Shown: one piece after another, positions 1 through 58,045 of the stretch
How positions within the stretch are numbered: position 1 is the first letter of the stretch
Layout of the letters: each line of letters starts with the position of its first letter
NCBI GenBank assembly: GCA_944389455.1
Contig: CALXMK010000005.1
Span: forward strand, 67,483 to 131,482
Reading direction: 5' to 3'
DNA length: 64,000 bases
Source: an uncultured Verrucomicrobiota bacterium
Lineage (GTDB): Bacteria; Verrucomicrobiota; Verrucomicrobiia; Limisphaerales; UBA1412
Translations under genes and position numbers: made by a program
The notes under the pieces: model-generated
Told to the model about the DNA's origin: nothing
What the model saw: the letters and a program-made list of their open reading frames with translations, nothing else
Databases searched by the model: none

Positions 1-52
1 AAACGAATTTGGAAAGGAATAGTGATATCATAGACTCAATTATAAAACTATA

Positions 53-1222: not shown

Positions 1223-4039
1223 ATGGCAAAATCCATTAAATACGTTTATACGTTTGGAAATAAAAAGGCCGATGGAGACGGCTCTATGAAAGCTCTCCTC
1301 GGAGGCAAAGGTGCAAACCTTGCCGAAATGACCAAAATTGGTCTTCCGGTTCCTCCCGGATTCACTATTACTACAGAAGTCTGCACCTATTACTATGCTA
1401 ACAAACGCAAGTACCCAACTGAGCTCAAAGCTCAAGTTAAAGAAGGGGTAGCCTTTTTGGAAAAAAGACTTGGGAAAAAGTTTAATGACAAGGAAAAACC
1501 ACTCCTAGTCTCCGTCCGCTCCGGAGCTCGAGTCTCTATGCCTGGCATGATGGACACCATTCTGAACCTGGGTTTAAATGATCAAACTGTTCTTGCTTTA
1601 GCTAAAGCCAGCAATAATGAGCGTTTTGCCTGGGATTGCTATCGCCGCTTTGTACAAATGTATGGCGATGTCGTCATGGGCGTTCAGAAAGGTCCAGGGG
1701 AGGATCGTGATCCCTTTGAAAAAATCATCGAAGAACTCAAAGAAGAAATCTTTGGTGGTGAATCAGTTGAAGACACTCGGCTAGATGTAGAAGCACTTCA
1801 GACACTCGTCTCTCGCTTCAAAAAACTAATCAAAGACCGTACACACTCTGAATTTCCCACAGATCCTTGGAAACAGCTTGAAGGAGCCATTGGTGCAGTC
1901 TTTGGCTCTTGGAACAACGAACGTGCCATTATCTACAGGCGCAAATATGGTTATCCAGATGACTGGGGCACTGCTGTCAATGTACAGGCAATGGTTTTTG
2001 GTAATATGGGTAACACCTCCGGCTCAGGCGTCGCCTTTACTCGAGATCCGGCAACAGGTGAAAAAATCTTCTATGGTGAATTCTTGATGAACGCTCAGGG
2101 TGAAGATGTCGTAGCTGGTGTACGCACTCCTCAGCCTGTAGCCAAGCTTGAAGAAGTCATGCCTCATGCCTTTGAAGAACTCTCCAATATCCGAAAGACC
2201 TTGGAAAATCACTTCCGTGACGTCCAAGATTTTGAGTTCACTATTGAGAACGGTGAAGTCTTCATGCTCCAAACCCGTAATGGCAAACGTACAGGTCTGG
2301 CAGCGGTTCGCATCGCGGTTGAGATGGTAAAAGAAAAACTTATTACCTGGCAAGAAGCGGTTGAAAGAGTCCCTGCTGAGCAGCTGGAACAAGTTCTCTC
2401 TCCGATCTTTGATTCGGAATCCCTTAAGAAAAACAAACCTGTTGCCAAAGGGCTACCTGCCGGTCCTGGTGCTGCCTGTGGTCGAATCTATTTTAATGCT
2501 GAAAGAGCAGAAGAAGCAGGCTCCAGAGGTGAAAAGGTTCTTTTAGTTCGCGTTGAAACATCTCCGGAAGACCTTCGCGGAATGATTGCCGCCGAAGGTA
2601 TCCTTACGGCAAGAGGTGGAGTTAGCTCTCACGCTGCTCTTGTTGCACGTCAGATGGGCAAAGTCTGCGTCTGCGGTGTCAATGAACTCCACATTAATTA
2701 CGAAAAACGCACAATGGAAGTGGGTGGGAAAACTCTTGCGGAAGGCGACTATGTTTCCATCAATGGAACTACCGGTGAAGTCTACTGCGGAGAAATCAAA
2801 ACAGCTCCTTCTGCTGTCATTCAAGCTCTTATTCATAATAATGAAGCAGCTAAAAAAGATAAGACTTATCTGAATTACGCCCAGCTCATGAGTTGGTGCG
2901 CTAAAGCCTCACGAATGAAGGTTCGCACCAATGCGGACTCTCCTTCTCAAGTAGCTGCGGCAATTGCCTTTGGCGCAGAAGGTATTGGACTCTGCCGTAC
3001 AGAACATATGTTCTTTGAAGGAGACCGTATCTATGCCGTTCGTGAAATGATTATGGCCACAACAATTGAAGGCCGAGAAGCTGCTCTAGCCAAACTGCTT
3101 CCATATCAAAGAGAAGACTTCACCAATATATTTAAGGCACTTGAAGGACGCCCGGCTACCATCCGCCTCCTGGATCCGCCGCTCCATGAATTCCTGCCAA
3201 AGGAAGATGAGGAAGGCGAAATGCAGGAAACCTGCAAAAAGACAGGTCTCTCCCGTGAATTTATCATTCAACGTATTCATGAACTTCATGAAGCCAATCC
3301 GATGCTCGGTCACCGCGGATGCCGCTTAGGAATTGCCTATCCTGAAATTACTCGCATGCAAGCCCGTGCTATCTTTGAAGCTGCTGCTGAAGTAATTAAG
3401 ATGAAGATTAAATGCGCTCCTGAAATTATGATCCCCCTGGTAGGATTCAAGAAAGAGCTCGATCTCCAAGCTGCTATCATCAAAGACGTTGCCGATGCTG
3501 TCATGAAAGAGACCAAAGTCCGCATCTCCTATAAGATTGGCACAATGATCGAAGTTCCTCGTGGAGCCCTGACTGCGGATGAAATTGCCCAAACAGCACA
3601 GTTCTTTAGCTTTGGCACTAACGACCTTACTCAGACAACTCTTGGCATGAGCCGTGATGACTCGGGTAAATTCCTTCCGGCCTATCAAAATGCGGAAATT
3701 ATTCCCACCAATCCTTTTGCCTCCATTGACCAAACCGGTGTAGGTAAACTGATTAAAATTGCTGTAGAAGGAGGTCGTTCCACTCGTCCCGACATCAAGC
3801 TCGGAATCTGCGGTGAACATGGCGGAGATCCTAACAGTGTCAAATTCTGCAATCAATTAGGATTGACCTATGTCAGCTGTTCTCCTTATCGTGTTCCGAC
3901 CGCTCGTCTGGCCGCAGCTCAAGCCGCTTTGGAACAAGAAGCTAAAGAAGAACAAGAAACAGATGTACCTGCCGCTGCCAGCTGTAAGATGAAGAAAGGC
4001 TGTGGCTGTAAGAAAAAAACAACCACTAAAAAGAAATAG
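1223..4039 (+). CDS. ppdK: Pyruvate, phosphate dikinase
   Basis: Interconverts pyruvate, ATP and Pi with PEP, AMP and PPi in the cytoplasm; in anaerobes it can serve either glycolysis or gluconeogenesis. Seen: an N-terminal nucleotide-binding domain with [14 protein letters not shown] and [15 protein letters not shown], the phosphohistidine domain with [12 protein letters not shown] (catalytic His470), and the C-terminal PEP/pyruvate-binding barrel ending in [10 protein letters not shown] (catalytic Cys863). Length 938 aa exceeds the usual 870-900 because of a tail of about 35 residues, acidic first and then Lys/Cys-rich ([12 protein letters not shown]). It has its own putative promoter and a strong terminator, so it appears monocistronic. 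In the phosphohistidine motif Val-Ser replaces the more usual Met-Thr, a conservative change. Confidence 0.96.
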
Positions 4040-50844: not shown

Positions 50845-51032
50845 TTAAATCTGCAGCTCAATAATAAGCTCATTCGAAGGATGACTAAAAAATCAGGAAA
50901 AATCAAAACCTTTATAAATATCTTCTTCATTTACTCATCCCCCTCCGGGATCTTTATTTGCCTTTTTACACACGCATAGCTATACTCTCTTCTAAAGAGA
51001 CGGCTCTTGGATAAACAAAGCTGACTTTTGAA

Positions 51033-51548
51033 ATGACGTTGAATGATTCTTTCTATATTCTCTTAGAAAATGAAAACGGAGAATTGATTCTCTGCCAAGC
51101 GGATGACATCACCCCTGAAATGCTTCAAATTGAAAGCCCCGGTGAGGAATACTTCTCTGCTGCGGTGGAGGCCTCTATTCTCTATATTAATCAGAAAAGC
51201 AGCCTCAATACCGTAACACTAGCCCAACTGCATGACTACGTCTCCATGGCACTTATTACTCCTAGGGGAAAATTAATTTACCGGATTAATCTCCTCGAAA
51301 CCTTATCACAGGAAGCTTTATTTGGAGAACTGCCTTTCTTACAAAAACTAAAAAATATCCTCCTCTCTTTAAACAAATTAAAAGTAGATCTGGTCTTTAT
51401 AGAAGGAATTCGAGAATGTTCCAGAATGTGCACTCATCGGCAATATCAATGCAAAACTACACGCCATCTAACAGACTATGCCGTTAATTTTATCCGTGAT
51501 TTTACCCGTTTTAATCTTAAATCCCATTGCACCTTGGTTATTTTATAA
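51033..51548 (+). CDS. Unrecognised 171-aa cytoplasmic protein with a Cys cluster
   Basis: I do not recognise this protein. Seen: no signal peptide or membrane helix; a beta-rich N-terminal half (FYILLENENGELILCQADD, TPRGKLIYRINLLET), a helical middle (FLQKLKNILLSLNKLKVDLVF), and a C-terminal segment ECSRMCTHRQYQC with three closely spaced Cys and a His, which could bind zinc or an Fe-S cluster. The ATG at 51033 has GACTTTTGAA upstream, not a good ribosome site. It is 8 bp before the HIT gene and 377 bp before panB, so it may be in that operon. It may be lineage-specific. Confidence 0.6.
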   Translation: MTLNDSFYILLENENGELILCQADDITPEMLQIESPGEEYFSAAVEASILYINQKSSLNTVTLAQLHDYVSMALITPRGKLIYRINLLETLSQEALFGELPFLQKLKNILLSLNKLKVDLVFIEGIRECSRMCTHRQYQCKTTRHLTDYAVNFIRDFTRFNLKSHCTLVIL

Positions 51549-52735: not shown

Positions 52736-53296
52736 CTACTCTTGTTTAGTAGAAACAATTCTCGCGGACAAAGTCATTAGCCATAAAAGATCCGAGAGCC
52801 GATTTAAATATACAGGCAATCGATTAAATTGGGATTGTGCCGGTGTATTTTCAAATTCTTTTGCCAAAAACCATAACTCCCTCTCAGCTCTCCGGCAAAC
52901 AGTGCGGGCAAAATTCAAAACAGCTTCCAACTCATTATCTCCCGGAATCAGCCATTCTTTAAAAATTGGTAAGGAGGATTCGTAACTTTCTATCGATGAA
53001 TCTAAAAATGAAATATCCTCCTGGCTAATCTGAGACAAAGTTCTTTTCTTTGGAGAATTCCACTCGGAAGGCAATACCATCAACTCTGTCATCAAACAAC
53101 TTAACCTCTTTTGAACCTGAAAAATAAGTTCTCGCATCTCGGGAGAAGCTTCTTCTCTCGCACGAACCATCCCCAGCAAGGCATTCAACTCATCTACTGC
53201 ACCGCAAGCACAGACGTATTCCGAAGTCTTATGAATTCTTTCCCCAAAAAGTAGTGATGTGCTGCCAATGTCTCCTTTTCCTGTTGAAATCTTCAT
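52736..53296 (-). CDS. pduO: Cob(I)alamin adenosyltransferase, PduO type
   Basis: Transfers adenosine from ATP to cob(I)alamin to make adenosylcobalamin. Seen: the N-terminal P-loop-like ISTGKGDIGSTSLLFGERIHK, the helical core AVDELNALLGMVRA, IQKRLSCLMTEL-like helix and ARTVCRRAERELWFLA, and the C-terminal YLNRLSDLLWLMT, matching the PduO/EutT trimeric family. Length 186 aa is typical. No cobalamin operon is nearby, but a B12-dependent radical-SAM gene (hpnJ) lies 2 kb away. It is convergent with panB. Confidence 0.92.
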   Translation of the reverse strand: MKISTGKGDIGSTSLLFGERIHKTSEYVCACGAVDELNALLGMVRAREEASPEMRELIFQVQKRLSCLMTELMVLPSEWNSPKKRTLSQISQEDISFLDSSIESYESSLPIFKEWLIPGDNELEAVLNFARTVCRRAERELWFLAKEFENTPAQSQFNRLPVYLNRLSDLLWLMTLSARIVSTKQE

Positions 53297-53379: not shown

Positions 53380-53454
53380 TGGTGCTCGCTAGAAGATTCG
53401 AACTTCTGACCTCTTCCGTGTGAAGGAAGCGCTCTTCCACTAAGCTAAGCGAGC
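53380..53454 (-). tRNA. tRNA-Val (anticodon CAC)
   Basis: A complete cloverleaf on the minus strand: acceptor GCTCGCT/AGCGAGC, D arm GCTT/GAGC, anticodon stem CTTCC/GGAAG with loop TTCACAC (anticodon CAC), T arm AGAAG/CTTCT with loop TTCGAAT, discriminator A and an encoded CCA end at 53380-53382. Reads GTG codons. The variable loop is short. It stands alone, with no other tRNA beside it. Confidence 0.95.
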
Positions 53455-53729
53455 CAGCTTCATTGAGTTAAAAGTCTATACTAATCTGAGCTAATTGCAA
53501 GTCTTTTAAAGTTTAATTCCGTTTTTTACTTTTCTTCACACAACACCCCTAAACTATGGATTCATTCAACCATCTGTACATAAATAAATTATAAAAATCA
53601 CTTTTTCATTCCTACCTGCTCTAACTTTAAACAGAAAAAACTCTTCTTACTTTTCTGAAAAACACAAAATTACTTCACTCTAGCTCTTTATTATTTGCCT
53701 CATCTCTCTCAATGGAATAAAATAAGTGC

Positions 53730-53996
53730 ATGAAATACCTGCTTTCAGGTAAATATGGCATTTTAGCCTTATTATTAGCATCCTCAGCTCTGGTCTTAAC
53801 TGGATGTGGAGGAATTGGAGCAACTCACAGTGTATCTCCGGCATCCTTCTTTATACCCGGTCTGGTGGAGAATACTCCTAATTCATCATTTGAAGAATAT
53901 CTATCTCACACTCAAACAGGGAAATCCATTTCCGATACTCAACTTGAATTTTTCTCTTCTGATAATTTAAAGGTTATTTGCAGCAATCCTGAATAA
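53730..53996 (+). CDS. Small lipoprotein, unrecognised
   Basis: An 88-aa protein, probably an outer- or inner-membrane lipoprotein. Seen: a signal with hydrophobic stretch (about residues 9-22) and lipobox LVLTGC (Cys26) followed by GGIG, then about 58 residues of polar, Ser/Thr-rich sequence (HTQTGKSISDTQLEFFSSDN) with no motif I know. The Gly-Gly after Cys suggests the outer membrane by the +2 rule. It precedes hpnH by 36 bp and may be co-transcribed. Not a known hopanoid gene. Confidence 0.6.
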   Translation: MKYLLSGKYGILALLLASSALVLTGCGGIGATHSVSPASFFIPGLVENTPNSSFEEYLSHTQTGKSISDTQLEFFSSDNLKVICSNPE

Positions 53997-54032
53997 CCTT
54001 TTCTTTTTTAGATATCTAGTTCTTTTTTATTT

Positions 54033-55289
54033 ATGCGTTTTCCTTTAAAAACAACTCTTAAGATCGCCTCCCACATCATCAAACACAAAGTACTGCATAC
54101 TCCGCGCTTTGCGATGGTATTGCAATTGGAACCTTTGCACACCTGTAATCTTGCCTGCACTGGATGTGGAAGAGTGCGAGAGTATTCAACTAATATCAAT
54201 GATCGGATGAAGTTAGAGGCCTGTCTGGATGCCGCTAATCAATGCGATGCCCCTATGGTCTCTATTTGCGGAGGAGAACCTCTTCTCTATCCGGAAATTG
54301 AGCTGCTAGTAGAAGGACTTCTCCGGCAAAAACGCATCATCTATATCTGCACAAACGGTATTCTGCTAAGACGTAAGCTCAAAGAATATATGGCTGCAGC
54401 ATATACCGCCGATATGGACCCCCTGATCCAAAAACTCATCTCTGAAAAACTAATCACTCAACAGGATTCGGAAACTATTCGTAAGGGAAATAATAAACCG
54501 GTCATATCACCTCATTGGAGTATCTACTGGAACATACACTTGGATGGCATGGAAAAAACTCATGATACCATTGTGGAACGTGAAGGAGTCTTCCGTGAAG
54601 CTATAGCTGGAATCCGGCTAGCCAAAGCTCTCGGCTTTCAAGTCGCTACTAATGCCACTGTTTATGGGCAAACAGATATGGATGAATTGGAACATCTTTT
54701 GGAATATCTCTCTTGGATTGGAGTCGATGGTCACACCATCTCTCCTGGCTATGATTATGACGCAGCTAAAATTGATATGGCTAAGCGTTTAGGGAAAAAC
54801 CCAGAAGAATTTTATCTGTCCCGCAAACAGACTCGTGAAAAATTTAAAGATTTTGAACGCTGGGGACAAAAATTCACACTCTTTGGCACTGTTGTCTATC
54901 AAGAATTTCTGACTGGAAAACGTGATCTTTCATGCACCGCATGGGCTATCCCCACTGTCACTCCTCGGGGATGGCGCTCTCCCTGCTACATGCTGGCAGA
55001 TACGCACTACCCCACGTATAAAGATCTTTTAGAAAAAACTGATTGGAATAAATATGGAGTCACAACTACAACTATTCGCGATCCACGCTGCTCTAACTGC
55101 ATGGTTCACTGTGGCTTTGATCCTTCTGGAGCATTAGGTGTAGATTCTAAACCAGGAGATAATTGGAAAAACTTTAAATTTAACTTTTCACCTCGCCCTC
55201 TAAGATGCAAAGAGGGAGCTAACATTAATCCTTTTAATGGTGTCTCTGCTGGGAAAGGACATCTTACGGAAACCAAAACAAATAATTAA
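54033..55289 (+). CDS. hpnH: Adenosyl-hopene transferase HpnH (radical SAM)
   Basis: Adds an adenosyl group to diploptene, the first step in making extended (C35) hopanoids. Seen: radical-SAM cluster motif with Cys38, Cys42 and Cys45 (LHTCNLACTGCGR), ISICGGEPLLYPE-like strand (MVSICGGEPLLYPEIELL), WNIHLDGMEKTHD, VDGHTISPGYDYDAA and a Cys-rich C terminus (CSNCMVHCGFDPSGAL) of HpnH type. At 418 aa it is longer than usual; a segment of about 35 residues (roughly 117-152, rich in Asp, Gln and Lys) between CTNGILLRRKL and WNIHLDG appears to be an insertion. It is followed by hpnJ after 28 bp. Confidence 0.88.
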   Translation: MRFPLKTTLKIASHIIKHKVLHTPRFAMVLQLEPLHTCNLACTGCGRVREYSTNINDRMKLEACLDAANQCDAPMVSICGGEPLLYPEIELLVEGLLRQKRIIYICTNGILLRRKLKEYMAAAYTADMDPLIQKLISEKLITQQDSETIRKGNNKPVISPHWSIYWNIHLDGMEKTHDTIVEREGVFREAIAGIRLAKALGFQVATNATVYGQTDMDELEHLLEYLSWIGVDGHTISPGYDYDAAKIDMAKRLGKNPEEFYLSRKQTREKFKDFERWGQKFTLFGTVVYQEFLTGKRDLSCTAWAIPTVTPRGWRSPCYMLADTHYPTYKDLLEKTDWNKYGVTTTTIRDPRCSNCMVHCGFDPSGALGVDSKPGDNWKNFKFNFSPRPLRCKEGANINPFNGVSAGKGHLTETKTNN

Positions 55290-55317
55290 TTTATTCTGAT
55301 AAAATAGGAAATAAACA

Positions 55318-56739
55318 ATGACACTCTTTCTTTCTCCGCCTTCGTTTGATGGCTTTGACGGTGGGGCTGGCTCTCGTTATCAAGCCAGACGTGAAATTCG
55401 GTCTTTCTGGTATCCAACATGGTTGGCGATGCCTGCGGCTCTTGTCCCCAACAGCAAATTAATGGACTGTCCTCCTCATGACATTGGCGTTGACGAATGC
55501 CTACAAGAAGCTAGAAAATATGATCATGTTATCATTCATACTTCTACCCCATCATTAGCCAATGACTGTAAAATCGCAGAAGCCATTAAACAGCAAAAGC
55601 CCTCCACAACCATTGGTTTTATCGGAGCGCATGCGATGGTTCTACCAGAGGAGACATTGAAAAGCTCTTGGGCCGTAGATTGGGTAGCTCGTCGGGAATT
55701 TGACTATACCTGTAGAGAAGTCTCAGAAGGAAGGCCTCTTTCTGAAATTAAAGGGCTAGCCTACAAGCAAGGAAATAAAATCATCTATACGCCTGAACGT
55801 GAATTGATTCGCAATCTGGATGAACTTCCTTGGGTCACCGACGTCTACAAGAGAGATTTAGATATCCGTAAGTACTCTATTGGCTATCTCAAAGAACCTT
55901 ATATATCTCTATATACTGGTCGTGGATGCCCCTCCAGATGCACTTTCTGTCTCTGGCCTCAAACAATCGCTGGACGCCGTTACCGTACTCGTTCCGCGGA
56001 TAATGTTGTAGCTGAAATGGCTCATGCTCAAAAACTCTTCCCAGAAGTTGAAGAATACTTCTTCGACGATGACACCTTTACCGCCAATCTCCCTAGGGCA
56101 AGAGAAATTGCTTCCAAACTTCAAAAGCTGGGCATTGTATGGTCCTGCAATAGCCGAGCTACTGTAGACTATGAAAGCCTGAAAGCTATGAAAGACGGAG
56201 GATTAAGACTTCTTCTGGTTGGTTATGAATCAGGAAGTCCAGAGATCCTCAAACGCATCAAAAAAGGTATCACCATTGAGCAAGCTAAAGAATTTACTAA
56301 AAACTGTAAAAAACTCGGTATTGTTATCCATGGCACCTTTGTTTTGGGACTTCCGATAGAGACCCCTGAAACAATTGAGCAAACTATTAAATATGCAATG
56401 GAACTGGATGTATTTAGCATCCAAGTCTCACTGGCTGCTCCTTATCCTGGCACAGAACTCTACGAAGAAGCCAAACAAAACGGCTGGTTCTCAAAAACTC
56501 GCCAAACCGGTCGCCAACTTACCAACGATGGTATTCAGCAAAGCGCTTTAGAATATCCCGGTCTATCCAAAGAAGAGATTTTTGACGCCGTTGAACGCTT
56601 TTACAAAACCTACTATCTCCGTCCAAAACCGATTTTACGAATTCTTAAAACAATGTTTGAAGATAAACATGTCATGGTTCGCCGTCTGCGTGAGGGATAT
56701 GAATTCTTCAACTTCATGTCTAAACGCAAAAAAGATTAG
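55318..56739 (+). CDS. hpnJ: B12-binding radical-SAM hopanoid protein HpnJ
   Basis: Member of the HpnJ family, linked to converting the bacteriohopanetetrol side chain to a cyclitol ether. Seen: N-terminal family stretch LSPPSFDGFDGGAGSRYQARREIRS (here split into short blocks), an N-terminal Rossmann-like B12-binding-type domain (about 1-180), the cluster motif GRGCPSRCTFCLWPQ, YFFDDDTFT, LLVGYESGSPEIL and VIHGTFVLGLPIET. Length 473 aa is normal. Known: such enzymes use adenosylmethionine and often cobalamin; the PduO gene nearby could supply the cofactor form, an inference. It lies between hpnH and lepB (7 bp to lepB). Confidence 0.88.
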   Translation: MTLFLSPPSFDGFDGGAGSRYQARREIRSFWYPTWLAMPAALVPNSKLMDCPPHDIGVDECLQEARKYDHVIIHTSTPSLANDCKIAEAIKQQKPSTTIGFIGAHAMVLPEETLKSSWAVDWVARREFDYTCREVSEGRPLSEIKGLAYKQGNKIIYTPERELIRNLDELPWVTDVYKRDLDIRKYSIGYLKEPYISLYTGRGCPSRCTFCLWPQTIAGRRYRTRSADNVVAEMAHAQKLFPEVEEYFFDDDTFTANLPRAREIASKLQKLGIVWSCNSRATVDYESLKAMKDGGLRLLLVGYESGSPEILKRIKKGITIEQAKEFTKNCKKLGIVIHGTFVLGLPIETPETIEQTIKYAMELDVFSIQVSLAAPYPGTELYEEAKQNGWFSKTRQTGRQLTNDGIQQSALEYPGLSKEEIFDAVERFYKTYYLRPKPILRILKTMFEDKHVMVRRLREGYEFFNFMSKRKKD

Positions 56740-56746
56740 TAAAAAA

Positions 56747-57964
56747 ATGCAATTCATTTTCACCTGGTTTTTAAATAAAAAAATCCGCGAAATATGGGAA
56801 TACCGTAAGGCTATTCTCAAGCAATTACGTGCTAGAGAAGATCTGCTTCAACCGGAAGAAGTCGTTTTAATTAAAGAAAAAGCAGAAGTATTGAAAAAAG
56901 CTCTTCTTAGAAACGCTTCCGAAGAAGAAATCAATGCCGCTGTAGAAGCACTGAATCAAGTCTCCGAATCTGCCGTTAAACCCTATCCTCATGCGACACT
57001 GCGAGATATATTCGAAGTAGCACTGGTTGCGGTAGCTATTGCTCTTGCAGCAAGAACGTTCTTCATTCAGCCAATGAAGATACCTACCAGTTCCATGCAG
57101 CCAACCCTCTACGGAGTAACAGGTGAAAATCTCAAAGAAACCGATCCGGACACGGAGATTCCTAATATCTTCAATCGCTTTATAGATAAATGGTTTTATG
57201 GAATTTCCTACCACCATCTTATTGCCAAATGTGATGGTCAACTCGCTGCCGTTGAAAAACCTCAAATGGTTCTTCCTTTTATCAAAAAACAGCGTTATCT
57301 AATTGGCAATGAATGGCATACTCTTTGGTTTCCCCCTACAACGCTTCCCTCTACAGGACCTGCGTCAGATTACCAGGCATTGCTCTATTCAAACGTCAAA
57401 ATAGGTGACTCCTTCAAAAAAGGAGAAGACGTTATCAAACTCAAAGTTAAAACAGGAGATCATCTCTTTGTCAATCGCCTAGTCTACAACTTTAGGAAAC
57501 CAGAAGTAGGAGAAATTGTTATCTTTGAAACAAGCGGTATCCAGGGATTACCTTCTGATACTTTTTACATCAAACGTATGGTCGCTGACAGCGGTGATAC
57601 TATATCTATCGGCAACGACCGCCATTTAATTCGAAATGGGAAAAGGATAGATGCTTCAACTCCACATTTTGAGATCATCTACGGATTTAACTCCAATGAT
57701 CCCTACATTCCCAACCACTACTTTGGCCATGTTAATGCAGAAACCTCTCGTGCTAATCATAATTACATGCGAATGCTGCCTGAATTTGAAAATGAATCTG
57801 GCATATTTAAAGTTAGACCAAACCATGTTCTTACACTGGGAGACAACACAATGAACAGTTCAGACTCTCGAGCCTGGGGTGACTTTGAACGATCTAAAAT
57901 CATTGGGCGCGCAGGATTTATCTACTGGCCGATTAGTGAACGCTGGGGCTGGGGATATCGATAA
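56747..57964 (+). CDS. lepB: Signal peptidase I (large form)
   Basis: Cleaves signal peptides from exported proteins at the outer face of the inner membrane. Seen: a cytoplasmic N-terminal helical part with coiled-coil character (about residues 12-80), one membrane helix (about 88-106), the Ser motif IPTSSMQPT (Ser116), box C GDHLFVNRL, the Lys motif FYIKRMVADSGD (Lys276) and LGDNTMNSSDSRAWG. Ser and Lys are 160 residues apart; in E. coli they are 55 apart, so about 100 extra residues lie between them. Length 405 aa from the ATG at 56747; the frame opens 165 bp earlier inside hpnJ and those residues are not family-like. A terminator follows. Confidence 0.93.
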   Translation: MQFIFTWFLNKKIREIWEYRKAILKQLRAREDLLQPEEVVLIKEKAEVLKKALLRNASEEEINAAVEALNQVSESAVKPYPHATLRDIFEVALVAVAIALAARTFFIQPMKIPTSSMQPTLYGVTGENLKETDPDTEIPNIFNRFIDKWFYGISYHHLIAKCDGQLAAVEKPQMVLPFIKKQRYLIGNEWHTLWFPPTTLPSTGPASDYQALLYSNVKIGDSFKKGEDVIKLKVKTGDHLFVNRLVYNFRKPEVGEIVIFETSGIQGLPSDTFYIKRMVADSGDTISIGNDRHLIRNGKRIDASTPHFEIIYGFNSNDPYIPNHYFGHVNAETSRANHNYMRMLPEFENESGIFKVRPNHVLTLGDNTMNSSDSRAWGDFERSKIIGRAGFIYWPISERWGWGYR

Positions 57965-58008
57965 AATAAGTTCACGGCATTCTCTTAATCCTTAATTTTA
58001 TTTTTTGG

Positions 58009-58045
58009 AAGCTCTTTCCCTGCATCTGGTGATGAAAGAGCTTTT
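58009..58045 (+). terminator. Rho-independent terminator after lepB
   Basis: A perfect 10-bp stem (AAGCTCTTTC/GAAAGAGCTT, 58009-58018 and 58034-58043) with a 15-base loop is followed by T residues. It is 44 bp after the lepB stop codon and closes the hpnH-hpnJ-lepB run. Confidence 0.85.

Follow-up and report, generated by a model that had tools for sequence, protein, structure and literature searches.

We analysed a stretch of 64,000 nucleotides (hereafter the window) from the draft genome of an uncultured Verrucomicrobiota bacterium of the order Limisphaerales (GCA_944389455.1; 2.62 Mb in 42 contigs, 93% complete), where it forms part of contig C5 (CALXMK010000005.1). Between a tRNA-Val gene and a terminator-like hairpin, four plus-strand genes encode a small lipoprotein, the hopanoid enzymes HpnH and HpnJ, and signal peptidase I (LepB), separated by gaps of 36, 28 and 7 bp. 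With few exceptions, the lipoprotein gene adjoins hpnH across a set of Verrucomicrobiota that we call the Limisphaerales/Pedosphaera group, or simply the order, and that NCBI divides into Limisphaerales and Pedosphaerales. The features of the locus, in window coordinates, are as follows:

53380–53454, minus strand: tRNA-Val gene
53695–53723, plus strand: promoter-like site (TTGCCT, 17 bp, TAAAAT), with 6 nt between its 3′ end and the lipoprotein ATG at 53730
53730–53996, plus strand: small lipoprotein, 88 amino acids, with the lipobox LTGC containing Cys26, followed by GGIGATHSVSPASFFIPGL; as a rule next to hpnH within the order
54033–55289, plus strand: hpnH, 418 amino acids, adenosyl-hopene transferase of the radical S-adenosylmethionine (SAM) type; TIGR03470, 357.6 bits (cut-off 225.05)
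55318–56739, plus strand: hpnJ, 473 amino acids, B12-binding-type radical SAM protein; TIGR03471, 748.9 bits (cut-off 577.6)
56747 (ATG) to 57964, plus strand: lepB, signal peptidase I, which closes the run; TIGR02227, 104.7 bits (cut-off 47)
58007–58045, plus strand: terminator-like hairpin with a U tract, after lepB; folding energy −14.8 kcal/mol, z −2.78

An earlier note, made from the letters of this DNA, had named hpnH, hpnJ and lepB, and all three identities were borne out by family matches over their cut-offs. The operon-like layout that it described also stands, with gaps of 7–36 bp and the hairpin behind lepB, although 4 of 200 shuffled sequences fold equally well and the hairpin is not in the output of a consensus terminator scan that permits loops of 3–8 only. 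Both the gene identities and the association of the lipoprotein with hpnH are firm.

We assessed this association in 78 genomes, the source genome included, of which 45 encode HpnJ over the TIGR03471 cut-off. Loci were fetched from 40 of the 44 other HpnJ-positive relatives (G007, G021, G043 and G059 were left out); hpnH was in view in 34, with a small lipoprotein gene directly upstream in 32, making 33 of 35 loci once the window is counted. Across the 78 genomes, a profile of the lipoprotein matched in 63 and placed it in 58 of the 66 sampled genera; at E 1e-30, 65 genomes gave a match to HpnH (64 over cut-off) and 66 to squalene-hopene cyclase (63 over cut-off). Setting aside two weak second lipoprotein matches (G009, E 0.005; G007, E 0.008), both lipoprotein and HpnH were present in 62 genomes, the lipoprotein alone in one (G061), HpnH alone in three (G036, G062 and G072), and neither in 12 (Fisher test, p = 1.3 × 10⁻¹⁰). 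Among the 50 genomes with a completeness of 90% or more and a contamination of 5% or less, the counts were 44, one, two and three, respectively (p = 0.002); both p values exaggerate the association, since neighbouring genes vanish together in assembly gaps. Where both genes were present, they were adjacent and on the same strand in 61 of 62 genomes, with 8–204 bp between the matched stretches. Incomplete genomes and the lipobox-based selection of family members weaken the statistics, not the adjacency.

A second collection, the best 80 of 397 relatives from an HpnH-alignment scan of genome contigs, taken with up to 4 kb of flank (named loci), gave the same picture. Their titles include Verrucomicrobia subdivision 3 (7), Pedosphaera (9), Limisphaera/Limisphaerales (5) and Verrucomicrobiales (15), the rest being mostly broader. 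Of the 76 with at least 300 bp upstream, 71 carry the lipoprotein directly ahead of hpnH at a gap of −4 to 209 bp (median 7), a recurrence that makes the pairing more than chance. This collection is not independent of the first, since 33 loci of the order supplied the profile and 11 of the 80 named loci have 500 identical bases in common with the fetched set of 40. Downstream, hpnJ follows hpnH in 42 of 66 named loci with at least 2.5 kb of sequence, and the lipoprotein is present in 22 of the 24 hpnH loci that lack it there. The suggestion in the earlier note of a tie between the lipoprotein and the hopanoid genes is borne out by 71 of 76 named loci and 61 of 62 genomes. Seven records of metagenome-assembled genomes titled Akkermansia muciniphila, Planctomycetota, Rhodospirillaceae or Omnitrophota (L119, L129, L136, L150, L151, L163 and L177) also hold an hpnH of the group's type; these odd titles are probably naming or binning errors. 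One of them, L150 (titled Akkermansia), has sequence upstream of hpnH in common with locus L066 of the same-order genome G058. Divergently upstream of hpnH in G036 lies a UbiE/MenG methyltransferase gene (TIGR01934, 223.5 bits; L195:2471–3223, minus), and antisense shadow open reading frames (ORFs), which dominated a clustering of neighbourhood ORFs, hint at a recurring divergent neighbour, as a lead only.

The HpnH of the window belongs to a divergent subfamily marked by an ordered insertion. Aligned with five canonical HpnH proteins from Verrucomicrobia, it shows about 40 extra residues near positions 120–158 and a C-terminal extension. An AlphaFold2 model (overall predicted local distance difference test score (pLDDT) 74.7, predicted template modelling score (pTM) 0.82) renders the insertion as helical, with pLDDT 90–95 over residues 111–160. 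In 64 of the 65 HpnH-positive genomes the insertion breaks the family match into two pieces; G043 has the N-terminal piece only. Cysteines C38, C42 and C45 are invariant in alignments of 20 and of 31 sequences and form a CxxxCxxC pattern that we take to be the radical SAM cluster motif. Among solved structures no close HpnH was found, the best profile match being another radical SAM protein (E 1.3e-5).

Beyond the order, a phylum sample of 387 genomes contained HpnH in 19, of which 13 are canonical, four insertion-type (G090, G243, G334 and G389) and two of the order. The lipoprotein was found in two genomes of this sample, G000 and G046, both of the order (at most 15 candidates were scored per genome), and it was upstream of hpnH in none of the 17 loci outside the order, scanned on both strands. 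Most simply, HpnH of the insertion type would have arisen before the lipoprotein.

The lipoprotein itself is a member of an undescribed family. The earlier note had called the 88-residue lipoprotein unknown, and it matched no Pfam, NCBIfam or PDB family over cut-off; its assignment to LptM or to any other family of these collections was rejected on that ground. A search of article titles and abstract openings likewise returned nothing describing the family or its promoter. A hydrophobic signal segment is followed by a lipobox cysteine near residue 20–26, so that lipidation is predicted, and the family motif combines the lipobox with GC[GS]G-x4-S[VI]SP-xxF[LF][LI]PG. In an alignment of 33 members, Gly-Cys, Gly and Ser-Pro are invariant (consensus GCGGIxASxSVSPAxFLLPGL), and a second alignment of 46 members, comprising the window and named loci, gave much the same result; G25 and C26 are invariant in both, in rows that were chosen through the lipobox pattern. 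That selection kept 92 proteins, after identical ones were reduced to one and seven non-fitting matches were dropped. Among the dropped matches the residue after the cysteine is Ser in two, Gly in three and Arg in one, with Asp in none, and L119 has no cysteine.

The invariant Ser, Pro and Gly positions have four or five synonymous codons each, and in all four of the closest pairs nonsynonymous divergence (dN, 0.006–0.27) is below synonymous divergence (dS, 0.08–0.84). Because synonymous codons vary freely and dN is below dS, we regard the lipoprotein as a real protein under selection. The window copy and that of L126, apparently from the same genus, are 46% identical in the lipoprotein and 80% in HpnH, and synonymous sites are saturated in this pair.

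A conserved promoter-like element stands immediately ahead of the gene. In 77 of 88 upstream regions (the kept lipoproteins with a start codon and 70 upstream bases), a site of the form TTGNNN-(16–18)-TANANT or TATNNT ends 3–13 nt before the lipoprotein start, 70 of them at 6–9 nt; dinucleotide shuffles of the same regions gave a mean of 0.44 matches (maximum 3). The first hexamer opens with TTGC in at least 69 of these 77 sites, and AATT stands a few bases 5′ of it in most of 60 sites that were aligned. Shine–Dalgarno-like 4-mers precede only 4 of the 88 starts. A scan of the 40 fetched loci (1.10 million strand-bases) for TTGC-N18-TATANT returned 27 sites, against 0 to 3 in mononucleotide shuffles, and 25 of these lie at a lipoprotein start (24 linked by script, L070 added from its protein) and one before an hpnH that lacks the lipoprotein. 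The patterns were picked after viewing the same sequences, with the shuffles as the sole control, and the window site is unremarkable by a simple sigma-70 scan alone (8 promoter-like sites against 11.6 expected). Because the promoter ends 3–13 nt before the start codon, we infer that a conserved sigma-70-like promoter yields a nearly leaderless lipoprotein message. Where hpnH lacks the lipoprotein, a TTGC-18..20-TATANT site lies 211–276 nt upstream in five of seven distinct loci (L053, L112, L150, L162 and L195; shuffles, mean 0.01 of 7, maximum 1); it was not found upstream of hpnH in L136 and L196. Another promoter-like site of the TTGCNN/TATACT form occurs in the window at 50958–51010 (plus), upstream of an ORF at 51033.

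We then placed the locus within the hopanoid pathway of its host. The earlier note had remarked on the absence of squalene-hopene cyclase and hpnG, and neither adjoins hpnH or hpnJ in the window. Both are nonetheless represented elsewhere in the genome, and a cyclase missing as a neighbour is not a cyclase missing from the genome. The cyclase lies on contig C18 (TIGR01507, 686.8 bits, cut-off 431.1), which rules out the alternative that, for want of a cyclase, HpnH and HpnJ are relatives acting on another lipid. The genome search that the note had proposed for shc, hpnG, hpnI and hpnK also returned HpnK over its cut-off on C33 (274.2 bits, cut-off 232.6), adjoining an HpnD-like squalene/phytoene synthase (270.3 bits, cut-off 278.6), an HpnI-like glycosyltransferase on C8 (287.7 bits, cut-off 310) and an HpnG-like phosphorylase on C27 (105.4 bits, cut-off 187.1), the last three below cut-off; a second squalene/phytoene synthase (SQS_PSY) gene lies on C2. 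No HpnG passed the cut-off in any of the 78 genomes, so the HpnG-like gene of the source genome is read as a divergent HpnG rather than as an absence; in G069 such a gene is directly downstream of the cyclase. The excerpt of PMC12583986 gives HpnI, HpnK and HpnJ as the three steps from bacteriohopanetetrol to its cyclitol ether. TIGR03471 is named for the last step to this ether, and the match covers residues 2–472 of the 473 in the window protein. For the cyclitol-ether branch, HpnJ and HpnK exceed their cut-offs and the HpnI-like protein falls below. Instead of a compact cluster of hpnH and hpnJ beside shc, hpnG, hpnI and hpnK, this 42-contig draft has hpn-type genes and cyclase spread over five contigs (C5, C8, C18, C27 and C33), with the second SQS_PSY gene on a sixth. 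The lipoprotein–hpnH–hpnJ–lepB run forms one part of an extended-hopanoid gene set that is largely complete, though scattered. Hopanoids had already been predicted in the Limisphaerales/Pedosphaera group, since hpnF, hpnG and hpnN are reported for Limisphaera ngatamarikiensis in the excerpt of PMC9543262.

Several other genes lie beside these pathway genes. Next to the cyclase are a homospermidine-biosynthesis protein (NF001980, 552.9 bits, cut-off 450; L002:7818–8942, minus) and a YbgC/FadM-type thioesterase (L002:9292–9771, plus), the latter 5 bp upstream of the cyclase. Near hpnK and the HpnD-like gene are a glycosyltransferase resembling MftF (87 bits, below the cut-off of 280; L192:2855–3808, minus) and an unnamed ORF of 219 amino acids (L192:3865–4524, minus). 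In the window, a PduO-type cobalamin adenosyltransferase (TIGR00636, 120.1 bits; 52736–53296, minus) is divergent from the run and just upstream of it, and HpnJ contains a B12-binding-like stretch (PF02310, 27.1 bits, below the gathering score of 32.1); a tie between the two is possible.

The fourth gene behaves differently from the pair. The earlier note had read lepB as an unusual link of hopanoid tailoring to protein export, and had suggested examining whether the order lipoprotein–hpnH–hpnJ–lepB is conserved. The first part of that order recurs, as described above, and hpnJ is often retained, but the window LepB protein found no counterpart at E 1e-15 in the 80 named loci (in 14 of them the downstream sequence is shorter than 2.5 kb, and a divergent lepB might escape the search) and no match above 60 bits in the other 40 loci that were fetched. 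On these two results an export link through lepB is unsupported and was rejected; the position of lepB looks local and incidental rather than conserved.

Two genomes separate the lipoprotein from hpnH. G058 has an hpnH without the lipoprotein upstream; its lipoprotein gene instead lies 61 bp upstream of an operon whose families (MlaE, PF02405, 230.2 bits; an ABC ATPase; MlaD, PF02470, 52.2 bits; and an ABC_trans_aux-like lipoprotein, 23.6 bits, cut-off 26) indicate lipid transport. This arrangement hints at a lipid-transport role for the lipoprotein. In G061, which is 96% complete, a solitary lipoprotein gene with a full TTGC/TATATT promoter (L188:4768–5034, minus) lies upstream of an ABC-F ATPase gene.

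Our preferred reading, which we hold at somewhat less than even odds, is that the protein is an outer-membrane lipoprotein aiding the placement of C35 hopanoids in the envelope, the function being read from its context. In such a scheme, the promoter abutting the start codon would give a nearly leaderless message, and the precursor would be exported and lipidated at Cys26. In E. coli, the residue after the lipidated cysteine sorts lipoproteins. By this +2 rule, which the excerpt of PMC10567701 applies to LptM, Gly rather than Asp after the cysteine would send the protein to the outer membrane; Gly or Ser occupies the position in 86 of 90 members, under a pattern that permits only G, S, A, T or N, so that Asp could not show. 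HpnH would couple adenosine to hopene at the inner membrane, and HpnG-, HpnI-, HpnK- and HpnJ-like enzymes would convert its product to bacteriohopanetetrol and the cyclitol ether. The conserved stretch of about 20 residues would dock the lipoprotein on a lipid-transport partner in the envelope, where it may help the bulky C35 hopanoids to reach the outer membrane or take their place in it. If transcribed together with hpnH, the lipoprotein would be made in an amount matched to side-chain synthesis, with lepB as a local passenger. A transport or assembly role, which the earlier note had raised, remains plausible.

Several points weigh against this placement role. The sorting rule is one established for E. 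coli, the Mla link comes from the single genome G058, and an AlphaFold2 model of the lipoprotein has low confidence (pLDDT 64, pTM 0.27), with a signal helix and little else. L119 encodes Ser in place of the lipobox cysteine (TTGSGG; about 3607–3910, plus) 90 bp upstream of hpnH, and this copy is perhaps decaying or no longer lipidated. HpnH occurs without the lipoprotein in 3 of 65 genomes and, in the phylum sample, in all four insertion-type cases outside the order and all 13 canonical ones. The HpnD-, HpnI- and HpnG-like scores fall below their cut-offs, the Fisher values are inflated, and nine of the 12 genomes with neither gene are less than 90% complete. Finally, searches of G061 turned up neither HpnH nor cyclase at E 1e-30 and no HpnI at E 1e-10, nor did any HpnK exceed its cut-off; since this genome keeps the gene and its promoter all the same, the lipoprotein may not be specific to hopanoids.

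This last genome also speaks for a different explanation, in which the lipoprotein has a general envelope role in the order that is not tied to hopanoids, and the pair with its shared promoter was fixed once in an ancestor and rarely broken. The position beside an Mla-type operon in G058 and the weaker conservation of the neighbours past hpnH (hpnJ in 42 of 66 loci, lepB in 0 of 80) fit the same idea. Against it, 12 of the 13 genomes without HpnH also lack the lipoprotein (three of four among those at least 90% complete), and the lipoprotein persists in 58 of 66 genera, adjoining hpnH in 61 of 62 genomes while other neighbours change. We regard such a general role as rather unlikely, though more probable than the two explanations that follow.

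Two further explanations place the importance of the small gene closer to HpnH itself. It could act mainly in cis, as a leaderless leading gene that sets or regulates hpnH translation, with a peptide of little importance: the promoter 3–13 nt before the start, the scarcity of Shine–Dalgarno-like sequences, the median gap of 7 bp to hpnH and the promoter-like site that persists upstream in five of seven loci lacking the lipoprotein would all suit a leader. A pure leader, however, would need no conserved lipobox or 20-residue motif kept through free synonymous change, no dN below dS in four of four pairs, and no separate copies such as the two that persist away from hpnH; we consider a mainly cis-acting ORF quite improbable. 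Slightly less probable again is a direct partnership, in which the lipoprotein would help to assemble or anchor HpnH or HpnJ from the membrane side, perhaps by way of the HpnH insertion. The retention of the lipoprotein in 22 of 24 hpnH loci without hpnJ downstream and the well-ordered extra helices of HpnH point that way, but HpnH has no export signal by eye and is expected in the cytoplasm, the mature lipoprotein is expected in the periplasm, and the four insertion-type HpnH proteins outside the order lack the lipoprotein.

Returning to the placement role, we compared the locus with characterized systems. The hpn genes of Proteobacteria and others have the same components, in that HpnH, HpnJ, HpnK and cyclase here exceed their cut-offs, with HpnI-, HpnG- and HpnD-like proteins below. 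In contrast to Alphaproteobacteria, where most of six key genes are co-localised according to the excerpt of PMC12583986, the genes here occupy five contigs, and the operon is led by a lipoprotein gene and encodes a divergent HpnH with an insertion. The same source assigns hopanoid delivery to the outer membrane, the task proposed here for the lipoprotein, to HpnN, but HpnN is an integral membrane transporter of the resistance-nodulation-division type, not a short lipoprotein. A further parallel is LptM (YifL), a lipoprotein of the lipopolysaccharide translocon that, as described in the excerpt of PMC10567701, is likewise very small, with Gly after the lipidated cysteine, a short conserved N-terminal part and, outside Enterobacteriaceae, a variable tail, and that has been proposed to mimic its lipid substrate. 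The two differ in family: the window lipoprotein scores 14.5 bits against the NF047847 cut-off of 27.7, 3 of 33 members match that model at E 0.1, PF13627 is not among the Pfam matches of the 33 members at E 0.1, and the motif SVSPASFLLPGL is peculiar to the hpnH-linked family. We favour a lipoprotein that may work like LptM without belonging to its family. The gene 61 bp ahead of MlaE, ATPase, MlaD and ABC_trans_aux-like genes in G058 recalls Mla/MCE phospholipid transport, but no family search identifies the lipoprotein as an Mla component, and it is beside hpnH in the other 61 of 62 genomes. A bolder version, which seems to us unlikely, gives the whole order a dedicated lipopeptide of the LptM kind, translated with HpnH from one nearly leaderless message. 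Acting at an Mla/MCE-type or some other envelope machine, this lipopeptide would imitate or chaperone extended hopanoids and thereby tie the synthesis of their side chains to their placement in the outer membrane.

Hopanoids are bacterial counterparts of sterols and a main source of molecular fossils. To our knowledge, their arrival and retention in the outer membrane are poorly understood outside a few Proteobacteria. The small lipoprotein, which has a conserved promoter of its own and accompanies hpnH across an order, offers a specific candidate for hopanoid placement. Extended hopanoids, perhaps including the cyclitol ether, are to be expected in these Verrucomicrobiota, and this would bear on how sediment hopanes are read. 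Our findings suggest that a tiny lipid-anchored envelope protein, paired with hpnH in a large group of soil and water bacteria, is an unrecognised partner in hopanoid handling.

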